Assembly: GCA_034522055.1 (NCBI GenBank)
Contig: JAXHLS010000002.1
Span: 682,001 to 746,000, forward strand
Reading direction: 5' to 3'
Length of the DNA: 64,000 nucleotides
From: Gammaproteobacteria bacterium
GTDB lineage: Bacteria; Pseudomonadota; Gammaproteobacteria; JAABTG01
In this document: piece by piece, positions 1,519 to 63,266 of the stretch
How positions within the stretch are numbered: the stretch's first letter is position 1
Layout: every line of letters begins with the position of its first letter
Position numbers and translations under genes: made by a program
Notes under the pieces: generated by a model
Databases searched by the model: none
Seen by the model: the letters and a program-made list of their open reading frames with translations, nothing else
Told to the model about the DNA's origin: nothing

Positions 1519-3090
1519 CTACTCCCACTCGATGGTGGCCGGGGGCTTGCCGGAGATGTCGTAGGCCACGCGGGAGATGCCATCCACTTCGTTGATGATG
1601 CGGTTGGCCACCCGGGCGAGGAACTCGTGGGGCAGGTGGGCGTAGCGGGCGGTCATGAAGTCCAGGGTCTCCACGGCGCGCAGGGCCACCACGTAGTCGT
1701 AGCGGCGGCTGTCGCCCATGACCCCCACGGAGCGCACCGGCAGGAACACGGCGAAGGCCTGGCTCACCTTGTCGTAGAGCCCCTGGGCCCGCAGCTCCTC
1801 GATGAAGATATGGTCGGCGCGGCGCAGCAGATCGGCGTATTCCTTCTTTACGGCGCCGAGAATGCGCACCCCCAGGCCGGGCCCGGGGAAGGGGTGGCGA
1901 TAGACCATGTCGAAGGGCAGGCCGAGTTCGGTGCCGAGCTTGCGCACCTCGTCCTTGAACAACTCCCGCAGGGGCTCCACCAGCTTCATCTTCATGCGTT
2001 CCGGCAGGCCGCCCACGTTATGGTGGGACTTGATGACGTGGGCCTTGCCACCCGCGCCCGCCGACTCGATGACGTCCGGGTAGATGGTGCCCTGGGCCAG
2101 CCAGTCCACCGCGGTGAGCTTTACGGCCTGCTCCTCGAAGATCTCGATGAACAGGTTGCCGATGATCTTGCGCTTGCGCTCGGGGTCGTCCTCCCCCGCC
2201 AGGGCCGCCAGGAAGCGCTCCTCGGCATCCACCCGGATGACGTTCACCCCCATGTGCTGGGCGAAGGTGGCCATCACCTGGTCGCCCTCGTTGAGACGCA
2301 GCAGGCCGTTGTCCACGAACACGCAGGTGAGCTGGCTGCCGATGGCCTTGTGCAGCAGGGCCGCCACGACGGCGGAATCCACGCCCCCGGACAGGCCCAG
2401 CAGCACCTTGTCCGCGCCCACCTGCTCCCGCACCCGTGCCACCAGATCGTCCACGATGTGCTCGGCGGTCCACAGCCGGGCGCAGCCGCAGATCTCGTGA
2501 ACGAAGCGCTCGATGATGCGCTGGCCTTGGTGGGTGTGGGTCACCTCCGGATGGAACTGCAGGCCGTAGAAGCCCTGCTCCTCGTCCGCCATGCCGGCGA
2601 TGGGCGAGTTGTCGCTGCTGGCGATCATCTTGAAGCCCGTCGGCAGGCCGCTGACGCGGTCGCCATGGCTCATCCACACGTCCAGCAGCCCGTAGCCCTC
2701 GGGGCTGGCGTGGTCCTCGATGTCCCGCAGCAGCCGGGAATGGCCCCGCGCCCGCACCTGGGCGTGGCCGAACTCGCGGTGGCTGCTGGGCTCCACCCCG
2801 CCCCCCAGCTGGGCCGCCATGGTCTGCATGCCGTAGCAGATCCCCAGCACCGGCACCCCCAGTTCGAAGACCTCGGCGGGCGCCTCCATGGCGGCGTCGC
2901 TGCCCACCGACTCGGGCCCCCCGGAGAGGATGATGCCGCTCGGCCGGTAGTGCGCGAGGAAGGCCCCGTCGACGCCGTAGGGGTGGATCTCCGAATACAC
3001 CCCCGCCTCCCGCACGCGGCGGGCGATGAGCTGGGTGTACTGGGAACCAAAGTCCAGGATCAGGATGCGATCCGCATGGATATCTGTCAT
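1519..3090 (-). CDS. guaA: GMP synthase (glutamine-hydrolysing)
   Basis: 523 residues, the usual length. It aminates XMP to GMP with glutamine and ATP, the last step of guanine nucleotide synthesis. The class I amidotransferase domain has the nucleophile Cys85 in [12 protein letters not shown] and the His-x-Glu in GLQFHPEV. The ATP pyrophosphatase domain has the P-loop SGGVDS, and the C-terminal dimerisation domain ends [18 protein letters not shown]. The start at [17 protein letters not shown] was chosen because longer frames add only GC-rich noise. It lies 65 bases downstream of guaB in the same direction, the classic guaBA operon. The stop codon is TAG, so TAG is a real stop in this genome. 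Confidence 0.97.
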
Positions 3091-3155: not shown

Positions 3156-4616
3156 TCAGACCCGGTAGTTGGGCGCCTCTTTGGTGATCGCCACGTCGTG
3201 GACGTGGCTCTCCCGCATACCGGCGTTGGTGACCCGCACGAAGGAGGGCTTGGAGCGCATTTCTGCGAGGTCCGCGCAACCCGTATAGCCCATGCTGGCG
3301 CGCAGGCCACCGAGGAGCTGATGGATGATGTTGGACATGGTGCCCTTGTAGGGCACGCGTCCCTCGATGCCCTCGGGCACCAGCTTCTCCACGTCCGACT
3401 TCTCCTGGAAGTAGCGGTCGCTGGAACCCTCGCGCTGGCTCATGGCGCCCAGGGACCCCATGCCCCTATAGGACTTGTAGGAGCGTCCCTGGTAGAGTTC
3501 CACCTCGCCGGGCGCCTCCTCCGTTCCCGCGAGCAGGCCGCCGATCATCACCGAATGGGCGCCGGCGGCGATGGCCTTGGCCAGGTCGCCGCTGTAGCGG
3601 ATGCCGCCATCGGCGATGAGGGGTATGTCGGTATCCTCGAGGGCGAGGGCCACGTTGGACACGGCAGTGATCTGGGGCACCCCCACGCCGGCCACGATGC
3701 GGGTGGTGCAGATGGAGCCCGGGCCGATGCCAACCTTGACGCCATCCGCCCCCGCGGCCACGAGGTCCCGCGCCGCCTCGCCGGTGGCGATGTTGCCGCC
3801 GATGACATCGAGTACCGGGAAGTCACCCTTGATGCGGGACACCATGTCCAGCACCCCCCGGGAGTGGCCGTGGGCGGTATCCACCACCACCACGTCCACC
3901 CCCTCCTCCACCAGGGCCGCCACCCGCTCCATGGTGCCCTCGCCGGTGCCCACCGCCGCACCCGCCCGCAGGCGCGCGAACTCGTCCTTGCAGGCATTGG
4001 GGAATTCGGTGGCCTTCTGGATATCCTTGACCGTAATCATGCCCCTCAGGTGGAAGGCGTCGTCGACAACCAGAACCTTCTCGATACGGTACTTGTGGAG
4101 CAGCGCCACGACCTCCTCCCGCTCCGCCCCCTCGCGTACCGTCACCAGTCGGTCCTTGGGGGTCATGATGGTGTCGACGGGTCTCTCGAAGTGGCTCTCG
4201 AAGCGCAGGTCGCGGCTGGTGACGATGCCCACCAGCTCGCCGCCCTTGACCACCGGCACCCCCGAGATGCTGTGGGTGCGGGTGATGTTCAGCACCTCGC
4301 CGATGCTCATCCCGGGATGGACACAGATGGGGTCCTTGATGACGCCGCTCTCGTATTTCTTGACCGCCCTCACCTGGGCCGCCTGTTCCTCGGCCCCCAT
4401 GTTCTTATGGATGATGCCGATCCCCCCTTCCTGGGCGATGGCGATGGCCAGGCGGGCCTCGGTCACCGTGTCCATGGCCGCGGCCAGGAGCGGGATGTTG
4501 AGTTCGATGTTGCGGGTCAGGCGGGTCCGCAGGCTCACGTCCCGGGGCAGCACCGAGGAATGGGCGGGCAGCAGGAGAACATCGTCGAATGTCAGTGCTT
4601 CTTGGGAAATGCGCAT
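3156..4616 (-). CDS. guaB: IMP dehydrogenase
   Basis: 486 residues. It oxidises IMP to XMP with NAD+, the committed step to guanine nucleotides. The barrel begins [21 protein letters not shown] tandem CBS pair spans about residues 95-205 ([19 protein letters not shown]). Catalytic Cys303 sits in [15 protein letters not shown], and the flap/active-site region reads [10 protein letters not shown]. It is the first gene of the guaBA operon, with a sigma-70-like promoter just upstream. Confidence 0.97.
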
Positions 4617-4652
4617 GATGGCGGGGCGGGGTCCATGGGAAAAACTTGGCGG

Positions 4653-4680
4653 ATTATAGGATTTGACCCCCTTTGGATAA
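4653..4680 (-). promoter_or_regulatory. probable guaBA promoter
   Basis: On the minus strand there is a perfect -10 TATAAT (4,653-4,658) and a weak -35 TTATCC (4,675-4,680) 16 bases upstream. The start codon of guaB at 4,616 lies ~37 bases downstream of the -10. Confidence 0.5.
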
Positions 4681-4804
4681 AAGGGTTAGCTTCCGGTGCC
4701 TATTCCGGTGCTTGCCCCGGATTGGAAGAAACCCCAATGCAATCAGGGGCCCCACGGCGCGGCGGCGGCGGAGGGCCTGGCCATCACGGCAGCGGGGACG
4801 GCGG

Positions 4805-5332
4805 ATGAACGGCGACAATTCCATCGTGGCCATCTGCACCGCGGCCATGGATGGCCCCATACCGGTGAGTGCAGTCCTCCCTCGGCGCCCCGGGCATATG
4901 CCGCCCTGCCCCCCGCGCTCGCCCGTCCAGTGGCTGGATGCCCCGGCCACCACACGGCAGCGGCCACCGGCGCCGCGACGCCAGACCGATGATCGGGACC
5001 ACCCGGGCGACGGCGCCTTGTTGTGCGCCCTTTGCCGTCATCCGGTGACCCATCCCAGGGAACGTATCGTGCGCGCCGGGGCCCACGAGCATGGCCGCAT
5101 GAACCCCGCGGGTTTCAGCTTTCACCTGGCCTGTTTCGCGGCCGCTCCGGGAGCGATGGTCGTGGGACCGGCCACCCTGGAGCACACCTGGTTCGCCGGC
5201 CATGGGTGGCGCATCGCCTTGTGCGGCGGCTGCGGTGAGCAGTTGGGCTGGCGCTTCGAGGCCCCTGACGGCGACCGCTTCTACGGCCTCATCGTCGGCC
5301 GGCTGGTGGCGGCGGATACACCGGAGACCTGA
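4805..5332 (+). CDS. single-domain CULT (cereblon-like, thalidomide-binding fold) protein
   Basis: 175 residues from the chosen ATG. The C-terminal ~110 residues match the CULT domain shared by eukaryotic cereblon and short bacterial proteins such as Magnetospirillum MsCI4. There are two zinc CxxC pairs (CALCRHPVT and CGGCGEQLGW). Three tryptophans of the aromatic cage are visible in HTWFAGHGWRIALC and LGWRFE, and the end DRFYGLIVGRLV is typical. The first ~60 residues are Pro/Arg-rich and probably disordered. In bacteria the domain stands alone, without the Lon-like and DDB1-binding parts, and its natural ligand is uncertain; cyclic imides bind in studied members. It is divergent from guaB and monocistronic. 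The start could be later, for instance the next in-frame ATG. Confidence 0.8.
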   Translation: MNGDNSIVAICTAAMDGPIPVSAVLPRRPGHMPPCPPRSPVQWLDAPATTRQRPPAPRRQTDDRDHPGDGALLCALCRHPVTHPRERIVRAGAHEHGRMNPAGFSFHLACFAAAPGAMVVGPATLEHTWFAGHGWRIALCGGCGEQLGWRFEAPDGDRFYGLIVGRLVAADTPET

Positions 5333-40697: not shown

Positions 40698-40773
40698 TTG
40701 TTACCCACTTGTTACCCACTTGGGGCGACTGATTATGAAAAAACGGCTCACCGACAAGACTGTTACCCACTTG
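40698..40773 (+). repeat. three TTGTTACCCACTTG direct repeats at the integrase start
   Basis: Copies at 40,698-40,711, 40,709-40,722 and 40,760-40,773 (first base C). The first two overlap by three bases and lie just before the integrase ATG; the third is inside the gene. They could be arm-type binding sites of the integrase. Related CTGTTACCCATGTTGTTACC occurs at 63,981-64,000. Confidence 0.6.
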
Positions 40774-41982
40774 GCGCCGCCCTCCGCGGGGCGCGTTGAC
40801 GTGTTCGACACTCTGCTTCCAGGGTTCGGCGTGCGGGTGAATACCAAGGGGCGAAAGACCTTCTTCGTGTTCTACCGGGTGAACGGCAGACAGTCCCGGC
40901 TCCTCCTGGGGGATTATTCCGAGACGGAAGGCCGGGGCGTGAAGCTTGCCGAGGCGCGCGCGGCGGCCCGCGCGGCCATGACCAAGGTTGCCGAGGGCGA
41001 CGATCCGCGGCAGAGCCCTTCGGAGACCATCCCCGACGGCGCGCGGGAGAGCTTCGATGACGTGGTGGCCGACTATGTGACCTACCACTGCAAAGTGAAG
41101 TTGAAGCCCCGCACGGCCGCCAGCTACGAGCGCGAGTTGAATCGCGTCAAGGCGAAGCTGGGCAGCAAGCCGATTACAAAACTGACTCGGCGCCACGTGT
41201 TGGATATCATCGAGGACCACCTAAGGAGCGGGCACCCCGCGCAGGCCGCATTGACTCACCGCATCCTGGCCGCGTTCTTTAACTGGACGGTTCAGCGCGG
41301 CATCCTGCCCGCCTCTCCTATTGCGGGGCTCAAGCTGCCGGCCAAGATCCCTTCCCGGGACCGGGTACTGACAGACGGTGAGCTGGCCGCCATCTGGGAG
41401 GCCGCCGGAGAACTGGGCTATCCCTTCGGCCCGTTCGTGCGCCTCCTGGCCGCCACAGGGCAGCGGGAGGGTGAGACCGCGCACATGCGCCACGAGGACC
41501 TGGACGGCGCCTTGTGGAGTATCCCCGACCCGAAGAACAGTACCCCCCACATGGTGACGCTACCGGCCATGGCCCGCGCGGAACTGGACGCCCTGCCCGG
41601 CTTCAAGGGACCGTTTGTATTCAGCGGGCGCGCCGGCAAGACGCCGGTTAGCGGGTTCAGCAGGGCGAAGCGTGTCCTGGACGAGCGCCTGAAGGAGATG
41701 CACCAGAGCGATGCCGCCAGGTGGCCCGAGGTAGCGCCGTGGCGCTTCCATGACTTGCGCCGCACGGTTGCAAGCCGCTTGGCCGAGATGGGCACCCCAC
41801 CCCACATCATCGAGGCCCTGTTGAACCACCGTAGCGGCCAGGTGTCCGGCGTCGCCCGCGTCTACAACCGTTACCGCTATGTGAAGGAGATCGCCGAGGC
41901 CCTGTGCCAGTGGAACGCGCAACTGGAGCGCATCACCGGCGCGCCTGAGCCGGCCGAGGTTGTGGAGCTTCGCCATGGTTGA
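40735..41982 (+). CDS. int: P4-type tyrosine integrase
   Basis: 415 residues. The N-terminal DUF4102-like domain (KKRLTDKTVTHL, LPGFGVRVNTKGRKTFFVFY) and SAM-like core-binding domain precede the catalytic domain. Catalytic Arg is in ATGQREGETAHMRHEDL, the His-x-x-Arg in WRFHDLRRTVASRL, the second His in LLNHRSGQVSG, and the Tyr in VYNRY. It should recombine at a tRNA 3' end; the tRNA-Thr fragment is 170 bases upstream. ATG 40,735 was preferred to TTG 40,720. Confidence 0.95.
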   Translation: MKKRLTDKTVTHLAPPSAGRVDVFDTLLPGFGVRVNTKGRKTFFVFYRVNGRQSRLLLGDYSETEGRGVKLAEARAAARAAMTKVAEGDDPRQSPSETIPDGARESFDDVVADYVTYHCKVKLKPRTAASYERELNRVKAKLGSKPITKLTRRHVLDIIEDHLRSGHPAQAALTHRILAAFFNWTVQRGILPASPIAGLKLPAKIPSRDRVLTDGELAAIWEAAGELGYPFGPFVRLLAATGQREGETAHMRHEDLDGALWSIPDPKNSTPHMVTLPAMARAELDALPGFKGPFVFSGRAGKTPVSGFSRAKRVLDERLKEMHQSDAARWPEVAPWRFHDLRRTVASRLAEMGTPPHIIEALLNHRSGQVSGVARVYNRYRYVKEIAEALCQWNAQLERITGAPEPAEVVELRHG

Positions 41983-54224: not shown

Positions 54225-54327
54225 AAAGCGCGCATGTTCAGGAACACCGTTCCCTACAGAGAGGGCTTCAGCATTTGCTTATTCAACGATAATCTTGATG
54301 AGTGCATCCCAACAGGAGGACGCATTC

Positions 54328-54942
54328 ATGCAGACCCCATCAACCCCTTGGAACAAAGGCCGCTCCGTCGGCCCGAAGGCCCCCCTAAAGCACTACCAGA
54401 TCTGGCGCATTCGCCGACGTCTCGAACGCGACTTCGCCAGACGTGATCTCGCTCTGTTCTCCTTGGCACTGGACTCCATGCTGCGGGCCTCCGACCTGCT
54501 CGCACTCAGGGTGGGAGACGTGATGGATGAAGCATGGCACGTGAGGACGGCGCTCGTCATTCGGCAGCGTAAGACGGGGTACATCGCCCAGGTAGAACTG
54601 GCCCCCTACACGCGGGCGGCCCTGGAGACCTGGGTGGCCTTCAGCGCGAAGTCTGCCTCGGACTTCCTGTTCACGAGGAGGAACGACGACCACGGGCCGC
54701 CTATCAGCGCCGCGCAGTACCGGAAGCGGGTCAAGGCTTGGGTCGCATCCATCGGCCTGAACCCCGATGCATACAGTACCCATAGCCTCCGGCGGACACT
54801 TGCGGCCCGGGTGTACCACGAGACCAAGAACATCGAGGTGGTTCGGAACTTGCTCGGCCAGAGCTCAGTCTCGTCAACGTCGCACTACCTGAATATCGGC
54901 GGGACCGAATCACTCGCGGTCGCAAGACGTTACCGCATCTGA
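54328..54942 (+). CDS. short tyrosine recombinase (catalytic domain only)
   Basis: 204 residues, with AGGAGG (54,314-54,319) well spaced from ATG 54,328. The catalytic Arg is in LDSMLRASDLLALRVGDV, the His-x-x-Arg in STHSLRRTLAARVYHETKN, and the Tyr in STSHYLNIGG. The N-terminal arm- and core-binding domains of normal integrases are absent. Proteins of this short class are chromosomal or element-borne with unknown recombination sites. It lies between two divergent PEP-CTERM genes, 107 bases before the SRAP gene. Confidence 0.87.
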   Translation: MQTPSTPWNKGRSVGPKAPLKHYQIWRIRRRLERDFARRDLALFSLALDSMLRASDLLALRVGDVMDEAWHVRTALVIRQRKTGYIAQVELAPYTRAALETWVAFSAKSASDFLFTRRNDDHGPPISAAQYRKRVKAWVASIGLNPDAYSTHSLRRTLAARVYHETKNIEVVRNLLGQSSVSSTSHYLNIGGTESLAVARRYRI

Positions 54943-57533: not shown

Positions 57534-57710
57534 TCAGAAGATCAAGTCATCGTCGTCGACTTCAAAGGTCGTTATGCGGTCTTGTTGCATGAGTTCGACC
57601 AGCTGCCGATCGTATCGGCTCCAGATGGCATCGCGGAGTTCGTCGATAAAGTCATAGATCGCCAATGCCTGCTCTGGTGTCCAGTCGTCCGGTATCGGGG
57701 GATGGGTCAT
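57534..57710 (-). CDS. small IS21-associated protein
   Basis: 58 residues ([40 protein letters not shown], acidic end FEVDDDDLIF). It overlaps the istB stop by four bases (57,707-57,710). Similar short acidic proteins follow istB in other IS21 elements; the role is unknown. Confidence 0.7.
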   Translation of the reverse strand: MTHPPIPDDWTPEQALAIYDFIDELRDAIWSRYDRQLVELMQQDRITTFEVDDDDLIF

Positions 57711-58480
57711 GGTTGGGCTCCTTTGTTGGATTTGGCTGCGGATTGGCGCCGCTGCGCCTGTTGCTGCTGTCGCTCCTTGGCCTCCTTGAGCCGGTAGGAT
57801 TCACCTTCGATAGTGAGGATCTCGGAGCGGTGTACCAGCCGGTCCACGAGGGAGACCACGCAGGAGGCGTTGGGAAAGACTTCACCCCATTCGGCGAAGG
57901 GTCGGTTGGTGGTGACCAGGGTGGATTTCTCCTCGTAGCGGCGGGAGACGATCTCGAACAGCAGATCGGCATGGCGATTGGAGTAGGCGAGATACCCCAC
58001 CTCGTCGACCGCTAGCAGTTGAGGGCGGGCGTAGCGGGCGAGGCGCCGCTTGAGGGCGCTGTCGCCATCCTGGGCGGCCAAGTCATTGAGCATCTGGCCG
58101 GCGCTGGTAAAGAGGACGCTGTGGCCGGCCAGCACCGCTTGATGGGCGATGTTGCGGGCCAGGGTGGATTTGCCGACCCCGTTGGGTCCCACCAGGATGA
58201 TATTGACCGCCTCGGTAAGGAAGTCGAGGCGCATCAGCTCACTGACCAGTTCCCGGTCGCAACGGCTGGGCCAGCCCCAGTCGAAGTCGGCCAGGGGTTT
58301 GAAGCGGCCCAGCCGCGCCCCTTTCATGCGCCGCTCGAGGCTGCGGTCGGCACGTTCTTCCTCTTCCCACTGGATCAGGGACTCGACCCAGCCAGCGTCG
58401 GCGTGCTCCTCCCAATGGCTCAGCAGGCCATGGAGCTTGAGGGCCGTGGCCCGTTCTTTCAGGGATGGGTTAGGGATCAT
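57707..58480 (-). CDS. istB: IS21 helper ATPase IstB
   Basis: 257 residues. [20 protein letters not shown] is Walker A (residues ~99-106), [20 protein letters not shown] Walker B, and [20 protein letters not shown] the sensor region with the conserved TTN. IstB, a DnaC/DnaA-like AAA+ protein, wraps DNA and delivers the target to IstA. Start overlaps the istA stop (ATGA). Confidence 0.95.
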
Positions 58481-60006
58481 TGGGGCTCCTCCTGGGCGTC
58501 GTCTTCGGCTTCGGGCGGGGTGGACTGCAAGGCGTCGTAGCCGCCCAGATCATGGGTGCGTACCACCAGCCCCCTGGCGCGCGCGTGGTCGATGCGCACT
58601 CCCACCCGGGGCGGCTGGTTTCTCGCCTCGCGCCTCCGCTGCAGGGCGATGCGCACGCCGTTGGGGTGAGCGACCCCGTGGGCCAGGCTCTCCTGGATGG
58701 CCGCTTCCAGCTCGGGGGCGCCGTAGGCATCGAGGAGGCGCAGCAGGGCGGCGGTGATGGCGCCGAGGTTGTCGCCACGCTCAGCGGCCTGTATGAGTAA
58801 CTGCCGGCTGGCCGGTGCGGCCTGGGCCAGGTGGTCCTGGCCGCGATGATGCCGGGCCTGGCGTTTGATCTGGACCAGTGCCTCGATGTGTTCCGGCTGT
58901 TCGATCTGCCGGCCCTTGTCGTAGCTGCGCGGGTGGCGGGCGATGACGTCTCCGCCGTCGAGGATCCGCACCTCGGTGGGTGAGGCCGAGACGGTGAGGG
59001 TGCGGCGCACATGGGTGTGGGGCACGCTGTAGTCGTTGCCCTCGAAGCGCGCGTAAGGGGTCTTGCCGATGTGGACCTCGACCCGCTCGTCGGTGGGATA
59101 GGGGTTATCGGGCAGCGCCAGCAGGGGCTCCTGCTCGAAGGCCTGGCGCACCGAGAGGGCACGGTCCTCCGGGCAGGGCCGGTCCATGGCCCAGCCGTTG
59201 CACCAGGCCTCGGCCTGGGCATTGAGGTCATCGATGTCGGTCCATTGGCGGGCCGGCCAGAAATTATCGCGTATCGTGCGGATGGCGCGTTCCACCCGCC
59301 CCTTCTCGTTGCCCCGGGCCACCGCCACCGGACGGGGCTCAAAGCGGTAGTGGGCGGCGAACTCGAGCAAGGTGGGATGGAAGCGGATGGCCTCACCCTG
59401 GCGCTCCAGCACGGCGCTTTTGAGGTTGTCGTAGAGCAGGACCTTGGGCAGGCCGTTCGAGGCGGTGAAGGCCGCCTCATGGCCCCGCAGGAAGTTGGCC
59501 ATCTTGGCATCGAGGAAGAAGCGCAAAAAAATGCGCCGGGAGTAGCTGAGCACCATGACAAAGGCCATCAGGGCATGGGTTGCGCGGCCGATGGTGAGCT
59601 TGCCGAAATGGCCCCAGTCGATCTGTCCCTGGTCGCCGGGCAGGGTCTTCAGGCGCAGAAAGGCCTCGGGCCGGGGGCGTGGCCGGTAACAGGCGAGCTG
59701 ATGGCGGAAGTGGTCGGGGCCGCCGGGGTAGCCCCGTTCACGCACCATGCCGTAGAGGCGGCTGGCGGTGAGCGTGGGGAACTGGGCCAGGGTGTCGGTG
59801 ATGAACGGCAGATAAGGATCGATCATCGACGGCTGCGCAGCCCGCTCGACCTTCGGCATGCCGGCCTGGGAGAGCACCCGATTGACGACGTTGTGGTGTA
59901 CGCCCAACTGGCTGGCAATGGTGCCCACCCGCCACTTCTCGACGTAGTGATAGCGCAGGATCTGCGCCTCTTGTTCTTTGCTGATGGCCAATGCGTTTCT
60001 CCTCAT
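58477..60006 (-). CDS. istA: IS21 transposase IstA
   Basis: 509 residues from [20 protein letters not shown]. The helix-turn-helix [20 protein letters not shown] is followed by the rve domain with Asp in [12 protein letters not shown], Asp in [13 protein letters not shown] and Glu in [14 protein letters not shown], then a C-terminal beta domain. It cuts and joins IS ends. A longer frame to 60,135 adds only Arg/Pro noise. Confidence 0.94.
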
Positions 60007-60165
60007 CTCGTGGCCGGCCGGCTCAAGGGGGCTGAGCCCGGGCGCCTGGTGGCCCCTGTCGGGTGACTGTTCCAAGCGCAGCAGCGGCGGTGGCGCGATG
60101 AAGCGGGCCGGTACGCAGGAAAGGTCCGCACTCACGGCCGCAGAAGTGGCAGCGAATGGGCGCCA

Positions 60166-60483: not shown

Positions 60484-61001
60484 CGGCGATCCAGGCCGAT
60501 GAGGACTTGATTGTCAGGGGAAAACGAGAAATAGTGTGCGGGCTCGTGCTCTGCACGGCCCGGGGTGCGATACCGGGATCGACGGCCAAGTCAATTAGAC
60601 CCGGTATCGCACCTGTCTCAACGGCCCCTCTTCATCTACCCGATTCCGGCACTCTTGTCACCGGTTGCTCGCGGCCGCCCGCCTGCCGGCTCAGCGACTG
60701 ATTGGCCTACCAATCAATCCTTCGCCAGATATGCGCGGGTTTTTACAGCCAGCTACACCCCGTCGCTAAATCGCCTGTTCCGGCGCCAATCTCTTTTCAG
60801 GAATCGCAGGGAAGCCTTCCTCGTTTCCCCAGCACCGACCCGGGGGCCAGATCTGCCACACGCGCAAGCTGCGGCTACCAAGAGCATGAAACTATTCGAT
60901 TAGATCCAAGGCGCCGGCGAGATGCGGTGCCCGATGGAAGGGAGGAGCGTTGGGGATAGACGCAAACCTTCCATTTATCTGAAATCTCAGGCAAAGATAC
61001 T
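60484..61001. other. intergenic, IS21 right end to cassette region
   Basis: No protein-like frame. It holds a perfect 14-bp inverted repeat (GGTGCGATACCGGG at 60,564-60,577 and its complement at 60,600-60,613, loop 22). GTTGGGG at 60,949-60,955 could be the outer core of a degraded attC before the first cassette, but no partner was found. Confidence 0.4.
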
Positions 61002-61379
61002 ATGGATACCGCGAAAGTTGACGAGATAAAGGGGCTTGCACAAATAGCCTTCGCGCAAGACGCCTTAAGAGGTATCGTTCTTTTAAATGGCGGAGCGCTG
61101 ATCAGTCTTTTAGCATTGTTTGGTCAAGTTTGGTCGAAGGACTCAGCTGAAGCTTCAATAGTAATGATCAGCTTAAGGCCTGGGTTGCTATTCTATCTTT
61201 TAGGTACTATAGCCGGAATTATCGCGCAAGGCGCCGCGTATCTTTCGCAACAATACTTTGTCGAAGGACATCATGTAGTCGGGATTGCCTTACGCCACGT
61301 CGTTATAATGCTGTCTTTATGCGGAATATATTTATTTGCTCATGCTAGTTTTTCATGTATTAACAGTTTTATAGGTTGA
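61002..61379 (+). CDS. cassette membrane protein, unknown
   Basis: 125 residues with three hydrophobic helices (LLNGGALISLLALFGQVW, LLFYLLGTIAGIIAQGAAYL, IALRHVVIMLSLCGIYLFAH). The N-terminus (MDTAKVDEIKGLAQIAFAQD) is polar. A+T content is clearly higher than the core genes. It lies upstream of attC site 1 in the cassette orientation, so it is probably an integron cassette gene. No family was recognised. Confidence 0.65.
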   Translation: MDTAKVDEIKGLAQIAFAQDALRGIVLLNGGALISLLALFGQVWSKDSAEASIVMISLRPGLLFYLLGTIAGIIAQGAAYLSQQYFVEGHHVVGIALRHVVIMLSLCGIYLFAHASFSCINSFIG

Positions 61380-61384
61380 CTATT

Positions 61385-61549
61385 ATGAGAAATGGTTTAC
61401 CGCTTAGTCCAATAAGATATGATGGACCTCCCTCTTGTGACGAAAATGGAAAGTACTATTATATCGGAAAAGAAGGATGTCTCGGATGTTTAATTTACCC
61501 GCTTGGTTTTATGGTTCTCATGCTGGTTGTATGGTACGTCCTTATTTAA
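61385..61549 (+). CDS. small cassette protein with one membrane helix
   Basis: 54 residues (MRNGLPLSPIRYDGPPSCDE, GCLGCLIYPLGFMVLMLVVW). Its ATG is six bases after the previous stop, so the two genes share a transcript, and attC 1 follows 14 bases later. Three Cys near the helix may bind metal or lipid. No family was recognised. Confidence 0.5.
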   Translation: MRNGLPLSPIRYDGPPSCDENGKYYYIGKEGCLGCLIYPLGFMVLMLVVWYVLI

Positions 61550-61563
61550 CGAGTAAAATAATT

Positions 61564-61683
61564 GCCTAACAAACGCGGTTGAGCTGGATACTCCTCCGCA
61601 GTGCACAGCTTACACACTTGCTACGCTCATTTTAGCGCAAGCGATGCGCCGCCTTGGCCTGTCGCTCACCGCGAACGTTAGAG
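61564..61683 (+). other. attC-like recombination site 1
   Basis: 120 bases starting with GCCTAAC (61,564-61,570) and ending with GTTAGAG (61,677-61,683). The inner arms AACAAACGCGGTTGAGC and GCTCACCGCGAACGTT are complementary except for an extra A, the extrahelical base needed by integron integrases. The middle is a long imperfect hairpin. The next gene starts 10 bases after the end. Confidence 0.8.
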
Positions 61684-61692
61684 ACAAGACAC

Positions 61693-62388
61693 ATGGAAAC
61701 TATCGTTTATTACTCAAGAAACGCTAAAAAGCCTCCGTTCGAGGTGATAATCGCACTGAATGGACAAACTGCATATATCAATTGCAATTGCCCGCTTGGG
61801 CAGGAAAAGAAAATATGCCGACATAAAATTAACGCAATCAGGGGCGATAAGTCTAAACGGCATGAATCTACCTCTGATGAAGTCATTGCGCGGCTAAGAC
61901 ATCTTTTCGGCTCAAGCTCTACGTTACGACAACACCTCGAAGAAAAGTGGCGTTCACTACGGATATTTTCTTCAGAGCACCCTGACAACGAAGAAGAAAT
62001 AGGTAACAAAAGAAGGATATTAGGCGAGGTGTTTGCAAACGGGTTTTTGAATGAAAACGTGTATCGACCACAAGAGCCATTTGATGCCGAAGAATGGGAG
62101 GACACTAGAGAGACTTTAATAAACGGTATGAATTGCCCAGTGACACTCAAATATGTAAATCACGAGGGGACTGCTACCACAAGGGATGTTCTTGTGGAGG
62201 AAGTATTTGTCAGTAATTCTAATTACTACATGCTGGGTTACTGCTCTCTACGCGAGCAGAAACGCACGTTCCGTGTTGACCGCATACAAGGCATAGATTT
62301 CGGCCCAGAGTGCACTACAAGAGACAAAAGCTTACTTCTGGATGTCGTCTTCCAAGGAAATCCGCAAGTACAAACCAGAAACCAGTAA
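61693..62388 (+). CDS. cassette-encoded SWIM-like zinc finger plus WYL domain protein
   Basis: 231 residues. The N-terminal ~60 residues contain AYINCNCPLGQEKKICRHKI, a CxCx(n)CxH SWIM-like zinc motif, embedded in two strands (TIVYYSRN, FEVIIALNG). A charged helical middle follows, then CPVTLKYVNHEGTATTRDVL, NYYMLGYCSLREQKRTFRVD and IQGIDF, the beta-barrel WYL fold that binds ligands or nucleic acid in many defence regulators. It is the only gene between two attC-like sites, as expected for one integron cassette. No HTH was seen, so it may not be a classic WYL repressor. Confidence 0.7.
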   Translation: METIVYYSRNAKKPPFEVIIALNGQTAYINCNCPLGQEKKICRHKINAIRGDKSKRHESTSDEVIARLRHLFGSSSTLRQHLEEKWRSLRIFSSEHPDNEEEIGNKRRILGEVFANGFLNENVYRPQEPFDAEEWEDTRETLINGMNCPVTLKYVNHEGTATTRDVLVEEVFVSNSNYYMLGYCSLREQKRTFRVDRIQGIDFGPECTTRDKSLLLDVVFQGNPQVQTRNQ

Positions 62389-62401
62389 ATACCGAAACAA
62401 C

Positions 62402-62490
62402 ACCTAACAAGGCCACAAACTCGGATCCAAAAAAAAGCGCTGCTCCTTCGTCGCTCTGCTTTTTGGATCTGGTTATGGCTGGCGTTAAGG
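62402..62490 (+). other. attC-like recombination site 2
   Basis: 89 bases from ACCTAAC (62,402-62,408) to GTTAAGG (62,484-62,490). Arms GGATCCAAAAA and TTTTTGGATC pair in the centre and the outer GGCCACAA / TTATGGC boxes pair imperfectly. It begins 13 bases after the SWIM-WYL stop codon. Confidence 0.75.
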
Positions 62491-62604
62491 GCGCGCTTCT
62501 CCCAGAAGCGCGACAACTTGGGAATGCAATTCTAGTGTCCTGTCCCGTAAGAATGTTCCCCACACGAATACTGCAGTTTCGGGGACAGTATCCTGAACTC
62601 AGAA

Positions 62605-62955
62605 CTACTCGGGAACCCGTATTCGTGTACGGTTCCGCTCAGCGGTCACGATCCCTCCCGTTGATAACTCGGTACTGTAGAGTTCGAGTGCCTTCAGGCA
62701 GTAGCTCGCCTGTTCCCGGGCCGGGATTCCTACTAGACGAATGATGCCGCTATGGGGCTCGCCGAATACGACGGCTCGTTCACCGAAGTCCTTGTCGAGT
62801 GTCACCAGGATCCGATCTTGTTCATGGGCCTGCCGGAGGATTTCCTTGTCACCGGGATCCTCCCCCCACTCACCAGTCCACTCGACGTCGTGTCCCCGGT
62901 CCAGGAGCGCTTGCACCGCGCCACCCCAGACACAGGTATCCAGCAGCAACTTCAC
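62605..62955 (-). CDS. DUF5615 PIN-like toxin
   Basis: 116 residues. MKLLLDTCVWGGAVQALLDR, GWEDPGDKEILRQAHEQDRI-type (GEDPGDKEILRQAHEQDRIL) and VTLDKDFGE carry the acidic residues of the PIN fold. It is paired with the DUF433 antitoxin upstream (ATGA overlap 62,952-62,955), a known VapBC-like arrangement. It is on the opposite strand to the cassettes and no attC follows it, so cassette status is unclear. Confidence 0.88.
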   Translation of the reverse strand: MKLLLDTCVWGGAVQALLDRGHDVEWTGEWGEDPGDKEILRQAHEQDRILVTLDKDFGERAVVFGEPHSGIIRLVGIPAREQASYCLKALELYSTELSTGGIVTAERNRTRIRVPE

Positions 62956-63203
62956 GCGACCGAATCGATCACGCTTGGCTCGAACCGCTCATGTCCCACC
63001 AGCCGGTGGGCGTAGGCCAGACACGCATGGATGTCTTCGGGCTCCAGCCACGGATATCCCTCGAGGAGGGTGTCGGGACTATCCCCCGCCGCCAGCATTC
63101 CCAGGACGTGCTCCACTGCCAGCCTGCGACCCCGGATGATTGGCTTGCCGCCGAAGATCTCCGGATTGACGGTAATGCGTCTCAGCAGCTCCTGCTCGTT
63201 CAT
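62952..63203 (-). CDS. DUF433 antitoxin
   Basis: 83 residues from ATG 63,203, preceded by GAGG. ITVNPEIFGGKPIIRGRRLA and VEHVLGMLAAGDSPDTLLEG, YPWLEPEDIHACLAYAHRLV are the DUF433 signature with its helix-turn-helix. It probably neutralises the DUF5615 toxin and represses the operon. Starts up to 63,230 are possible. Confidence 0.9.
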   Translation of the reverse strand: MNEQELLRRITVNPEIFGGKPIIRGRRLAVEHVLGMLAAGDSPDTLLEGYPWLEPEDIHACLAYAHRLVGHERFEPSVIDSVA

Positions 63204-63266
63204 GGTGCTCGCCCTCGGCATGGTGACCATTAACAGTATCCGGAGTATGGAGTAGGTGGTAAAGGG

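Follow-up and report, generated by a model that had tools for sequence, protein, structure and literature searches.

Integron integrases (IntI) recombine attC sites in the form of the folded bottom strand. Clusters of attC sites without an integrase are referred to as CALINs, a term that we use as in PMC12444791. Small defence systems are known to reside in the integron cassettes of Vibrio and other bacteria, and account for ~10% of the cassettes of V. cholerae (PMC12409362). The locus described here belongs to a 64,000-nucleotide stretch of a gammaproteobacterial genome, the whole of which we call the window. It agrees with known CALINs in having two attC sites in one orientation and no proximal intI gene, and differs from them in its cargo, a gene for a protein that joins a SWIM-type zinc domain to a WYL domain, and in that the genome's own intI is truncated. 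With the integron-borne defence cassettes it shares the layout of a small single-gene cassette in an attC context, and SduA-type cargo like theirs is present in a sister island; however, the protein encoded in the window has no recognised defence effector.

On the side of the protein, the nearest characterised relatives are the WYL regulators PafBC, DriD, BrxR and CapW, which carry N-terminal winged-HTH DNA-binding domains. The window protein has the WYL domain in common with them, according to both Pfam and the predicted fold, whereas the position of the winged HTH is taken by the SWIM-type domain and a helical linker. SWIM zinc domains can bind nucleic acid or protein. The stand-alone SWIM proteins align with the N-terminal 74 residues of the window protein, but they are devoid of WYL. 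Fusions of WYL with domains other than HTH, to which the window protein can be likened, are on record: the main-text list of Makarova et al. 2014 comprises Cas3, nucleases, a helicase, AbiGII-like, BRCT and TerB domains (PMC4012209), while SWIM, present in the window protein, is absent from that list.

We regard it as nearly certain that the locus is a two-attC cluster of integron cassettes without an integrase, i.e. a CALIN, on the strength of the attC sites in the window together with the truncated intI and the other attC sites of the genome. Site 1 (61564-61683, forward strand) has the cores GCCTAAC (R'') and GTTAGAG (R'), spacers of 3/3, and L arms CGCGG-T-TGAGC and GCTCACCGCG, from which a single T is bulged. 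Site 2 (62402-62490, forward strand), which belongs to the SWIM-WYL cassette, has the cores ACCTAAC (R'') and GTTAAGG (R') and single-base bulges in its arms; the extrahelical base that the original prediction reserved for the first site is therefore real in site 1 but not confined to it. In both R' cores the last base deviates. According to a custom attC finder, which combines the R''/R' cores with arm pairing and permits one bulge, sites 1 and 2 are the best in the 64-kb window (19.0 and 18.0, with a runner-up, either strand considered, of 13.9), and known attC sites in the class-1 integrons of four plasmids score ~16-22. Thirty Markov resamples of the window (1.9 Mb) yielded 6 finder matches of at least 18. 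One site scoring 18 is mildly unusual; for a pair on the same strand, flanking a gene, chance origin is very unlikely.

The covariance models used here were custom-built and are distinct from that of IntegronFinder. R1 (13 sites) and R2 (21 sites) were trained mainly on short class-1-like sites, and the training set of R3 (31 sites) included other attC sites of the same genome and those of the beta-proteobacterial locus L042 (see below), with the window sites excluded. Applied to both strands of the whole window at E<=10, R3 returned exactly two matches, namely site 2 (21.7 bits, E 0.0024) and site 1 (16.8 bits), the latter with an E-value of 0.047 in 64 kb that is modest by itself. Of the two sites, R1 detected the first only (E 1.2 over 238 kb), and R2 found neither when searching the whole window and ranked them first and second within 60900-62600. 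The weakness of R1 and R2 on the window can be attributed to their being too class-1-like for its long-looped sites, and the success of R3 to the own-genome and L042 sites added to its training. An Rfam search of the window gave one tRNA only, with no attC-type family at the gathering score. When the bottom strand was folded as DNA, the expected number of arm pairs was 14.5 for site 1 and 15.9 for site 2, compared to shuffle maxima of 13.2 and 7.0, respectively (0/60 shuffles reached the real sites), and the arm pairing of both sites resembles that of most control attC sites. The overall folding energy is ordinary (z of -1.3 for site 1 and -2.7 for site 2), which reflects the long central loops. 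Two attC-like sites with R''/R' cores had been predicted at exactly these positions; they are the best two in the window by the finder and by R3, and the prediction withstood the covariance search of 60,900-62,600, where R2 places both on top and R3 agrees window-wide, as well as bottom-strand folding, in which the arms of both sites pair above 60/60 shuffles.

Site 1 closes the upstream cassette, and its R' core at 61677-61683 opens the SWIM-WYL cassette, which spans 61678-62484 of the forward strand (807 nt) if its limits are deduced from the two R' cores. The crossover position, between the G and the TT of each R' core, defines the predicted unit of excision by IntI. Between the sites there is a single ORF, at 61693-62388 on the forward strand, which codes for a protein of 231 aa with a match to the WYL profile and with full-length homologues. 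It starts 10 nt past site 1, stops 13 nt before site 2, and shares one orientation with both attC sites, so that the ORF and site coordinates bear out the earlier description of a single gene in standard cassette geometry. The cassettes form a sharply A+T-richer block, with a G+C content of ~0.40-0.48 vs 0.58-0.72 in the flanks. A promoter search found 3 candidates vs 2.6 expected by chance, none of them convincing.

A scan of 84,980 species, each represented by one genome, revealed three full-length relatives of the SWIM-WYL protein, about 57-75% identical to it over the alignment: in L042, a beta-proteobacterial MAG labelled Bordetella (76%), in L043, Thiohalocapsa marina (73%), and in L044, a Comamonadaceae MAG (58%). 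The L042 homologue is flanked by two attC sites (2994-3063 and 3783-3845), for which R2 gives 33.1 and 27.2 bits, neither of them having been used in the training of that model, and it is part of an array of five attC sites in one orientation, upstream of which lies a frameshifted N-terminal piece of intI in divergent orientation. Another cassette of that array (4269-5168) encodes a membrane-anchored WYL-TerB protein, which makes two WYL cassettes in one array. The DNA similarity of the window to L042 and to L043 extends for ~16 nt 5' of the start codon and ends at the R' core, beyond which it falls to background. The upstream similarity thus begins at the attC crossover point, i.e. at the expected boundary of a cassette, which is independent evidence for the mobility of the gene in cassette form. 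Around the L043 and L044 homologues there is no detectable attC, and hence the SWIM-WYL family also lives outside integrons. In 369 genomes of the class and 398 of the phylum we found SWIM-only or WYL-only proteins and no fusion outside the genome itself. Among plasmids there was no DNA relative of the region, and the protein search gave one match, which is WYL-only; among phages and viral contigs there was no protein relative.

The original prediction noted that no integrase was in view. This is true of the window, and the genome-wide search finds a truncated intI only: no intact integron integrase was found in the genome, in which TIGR02249 has no match above its cutoff and, at C2:1575537-1575896, matches a piece in part (model positions 194-313, 203 bits). 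This sole integron-type piece lies ~0.83 Mb from the cassettes, beside IS66-type ORFs, and represents the C-terminal part of the protein, 55% identical to the C-terminal half of IntI1; its N-terminal half was not found nearby. The IS66-truncated half as a whole covers about C2:1575453-1575896. The cassettes would have been brought in by an integron integrase, through recombination at attC sites folded from the bottom strand, and the cutting of the integrase gene by IS66 would have left them fixed unless IntI were supplied in trans.

About a dozen further attC matches lie in several islands elsewhere in the genome. R3 gives 16 matches at E<=10, among them 11 at E<0.02, some of which are in its training set, and R2, trained without the sites of this genome, recovered four of its attC sites; the finder agrees on several. 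The R3 matches include clusters at C6:211-220 kb and C6:227-232 kb and places at C2:1454.9, 1785.7, 3155.2 and 3181.1 kb. A second integrase-less cassette island lies at C2:3438869-3442280, where attC-like sites are found between genes for a PIN-domain protein, an uncharacterised protein, SduA (Shedu; PADLOC E 7.7e-157), and a DUF6602/NucC-like PD-DExK protein. Part of one such site, at C2:3441322, is 87% identical over ~46 nt to the middle of site 2 (bases 26-71 of the query). The locus in the window is one of several CALINs in the genome. As to other repeats and recombinases, C6 contains a near-identical two-attC stretch with a CopG-type antitoxin ORF and an HTH_3 HigA-like ORF twice, ~15 kb apart (L050 6409-7453 and L051 1898-2942), and C2 carries near-identical tandem sets of tyrosine recombinases near 18.0, 2153.6, 2684.5, 3562.4 and 3614.2 kb, whose frames of 359, 430 and ~436 aa resemble recombinase-in-trio elements.

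The SWIM-WYL cassette is preceded by two genes of the same orientation, one of low G+C content coding for a hydrophobic protein of 125 aa (61002-61379), without Pfam, NCBIfam, PADLOC or PHROGs matches, and one for a small protein of 54 aa (61385-61549) with one hydrophobic stretch, by reading, and without Pfam or NCBIfam matches. The suggestion that this A+T-rich membrane pair constitutes an earlier cassette is very likely correct, since site 1 closes it; its left boundary was not found. A lone R'-like core, GTTGGGG at 60949-60955 on the forward strand, was noticed on reading the sequence and might mark the left end, with uncertainty, as there is neither a matching R'' arm upstream nor an R3 match near it. 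The left side of the island is adjoined by an IstA/IstB-like transposase pair at 57707-60135 on the reverse strand, IS21-type by reading, which may be responsible for the loss of the island's left end. On the right side, directly after the cassettes, a toxin-antitoxin-like pair of DUF5615 (PIN-like) and DUF433 proteins is encoded on the reverse strand (62605-63230). We rejected this pair as a further cassette, a third attC being absent according to both the finder and R3. A DUF5615/DUF433 pair like that of the window is found near attC, together with a gene for a DarT-family protein, in the array region of plasmid pTs485 of Ca. Thiodictyon syntrophicum (L037 797-12372), an integron in which the integrase gene is full-length and a 97-bp attC is repeated. 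The tyrosine recombinases of the window, at 40720-41982 and 54295-54942, were rejected as intI, neither of them being among the TIGR02249 matches. The latter, of 215 aa and ~6.6 kb upstream of the cassettes, shows a weak tblastn similarity to IntI1 (32% over 65 aa, E 6e-4), and a recombinase match of similar score, in a frame of 239 aa, occurs in the genome at C2:3550031.

The fusion of a SWIM-like zinc motif with WYL, claimed in the original prediction, is real. The WYL domain (PF13280) covers residues 149-201 (E 4.9e-10, 39.7 bits vs a cutoff of 21.8), and R164, C184, R187, R191 and R197 are invariant in 4/4 homologues. These basic residues and the Cys are assigned to the lining of the barrel by reading, not by superposition, in keeping with the description of the WYL barrel as lined with conserved basic residues as well as a common Cys (PMC4012209). 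At the N-terminus, the motif C31-x-C33-x8-C42-x-H44 provides the putative zinc ligands, likewise invariant in 4/4 homologues. Pfam SWIM (PF04434) matches the window protein below threshold (E 0.065, 13.2 bits vs 19.6); however, HHalign relates the N-terminal 74 residues to stand-alone SWIM proteins of 110-125 aa from Pseudomonadota (L018, L023, L027, L088, L090 and L092) with a probability of 98% (E 3e-13). All six possess the CxCx(n)CxH motif and match Pfam SWIM, the L023 protein above the cutoff (20.9 bits). Pfam sees this stand-alone family only through the short SWIM model. The structure predicted from four sequences has a mean pLDDT of 57, with residues 1-79 below 50, so that the confident part is the WYL half only and the SWIM half is without structural support. 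The best fold matches in the PDB are PafBC, BrxR, DriD (including ssDNA complexes) and CapW; the sequence search of the PDB is weak (8bnv, an AAA ATPase, E 0.0027; PafBC, E 0.044). Only generic or associated WYL models of PADLOC match the window protein, in which Pfam finds no enzymatic domain and no HTH was detected. A full-text literature search for a SWIM zinc finger together with WYL, of incomplete coverage, gave no paper; the architecture appears to be rare and unreported in the searchable literature.

WYL domains are sensors of nucleic acids or nucleotides (PMC4012209; PMC12409362). In the mechanism that we propose, the Sm-like barrel of WYL, with its conserved basic residues, would serve as the binding site of a nucleotide-type ligand or of single-stranded nucleic acid. 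The output, the binding of DNA or protein, would fall to the zinc-bound SWIM domain and helical linker in place of the usual winged HTH. Judging from the sequence, we give an even chance to the protein being a sensor of nucleic acid or nucleotide. The explanation as a whole, i.e. a CALIN of IntI origin that carries a sensor-type SWIM-WYL protein, is in our opinion probable.

A much less generous interpretation is that the hairpins arose by chance or are unrelated repeats around a normal chromosomal gene. The modest E-values of the single sites, the occasional score of 18 in resampled DNA, and the position of the L044 homologue outside any attC array could be quoted in its favour, but it is already contradicted and extremely improbable, given that the model has only two matches in the window, on the same strand and on either side of one gene, that the genome contains many more attC sites and the intI remnant, that the L042 homologue lies in an attC array, and that the similarity breaks off at the core. 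A rather unlikely, but more serious possibility is that of a decayed cassette, whose attC sites and gene are relics, past recombination or expression. The deviating last base of the R' cores, the absence of a convincing promoter, and the truncated intI agree with decay; on the other hand, the frame is intact and the zinc ligands and basic WYL residues are invariant in four homologues, which suggests that the gene has been under selection.

The SWIM-WYL protein is most likely a regulator or defence protein that works on its own and responds to stress or phage, as far as can be predicted from sequence. One variant, which we find plausible albeit well short of probable, is an ordinary ligand-responsive regulator of transcription, e.g. 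of DNA-damage or metabolic genes, with SWIM as the DNA-binding part and no role as a defence factor. The nearest folds do include the transcription regulators PafBC and DriD, beside the defence regulators BrxR and CapW, and a domain that binds nucleic acid or protein in the absence of an enzymatic one would suit a regulator; however, a regulator that travels alone in a single-gene cassette would have no partner gene in cis, and the nearest characterised WYL proteins have the HTH that is lacking here. The other variant, slightly less likely, is a stand-alone anti-phage protein, in which WYL would be the sensor of a nucleic acid induced by phage, with direct action on nucleic acid or a partner left to the SWIM/helical half. 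WYL proteins are known to regulate defence (PMC4012209), yet the window protein has no enzymatic effector domain and its PADLOC matches are generic. The defence option is raised, rather than proven, by the status of integrons as defence reservoirs and by another attC island of the genome, which encodes SduA and NucC-like proteins; a role of the SWIM-WYL protein specifically in phage defence is, on present evidence, a tentative suggestion. It is still more speculative, and in our view improbable, that SWIM-WYL cassettes constitute a new single-gene, integron-borne module for defence or stress sensing, in which SWIM replaces HTH and WYL reads infection-derived single-stranded nucleic acid.

The carriage of genes in cassettes and the presence of defence genes in integrons are both already known. 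What the locus adds to the known types of integron cargo is a rare and unassigned domain architecture. In addition, its genome is an example of cassette islands dispersed behind a dead integrase, with SduA and NucC-like genes in one of the islands. If the SWIM-WYL protein does protect against phage, it would represent a compact and mobile one-gene system, the trigger of which, nucleic acid in the WYL barrel, would be directly testable.
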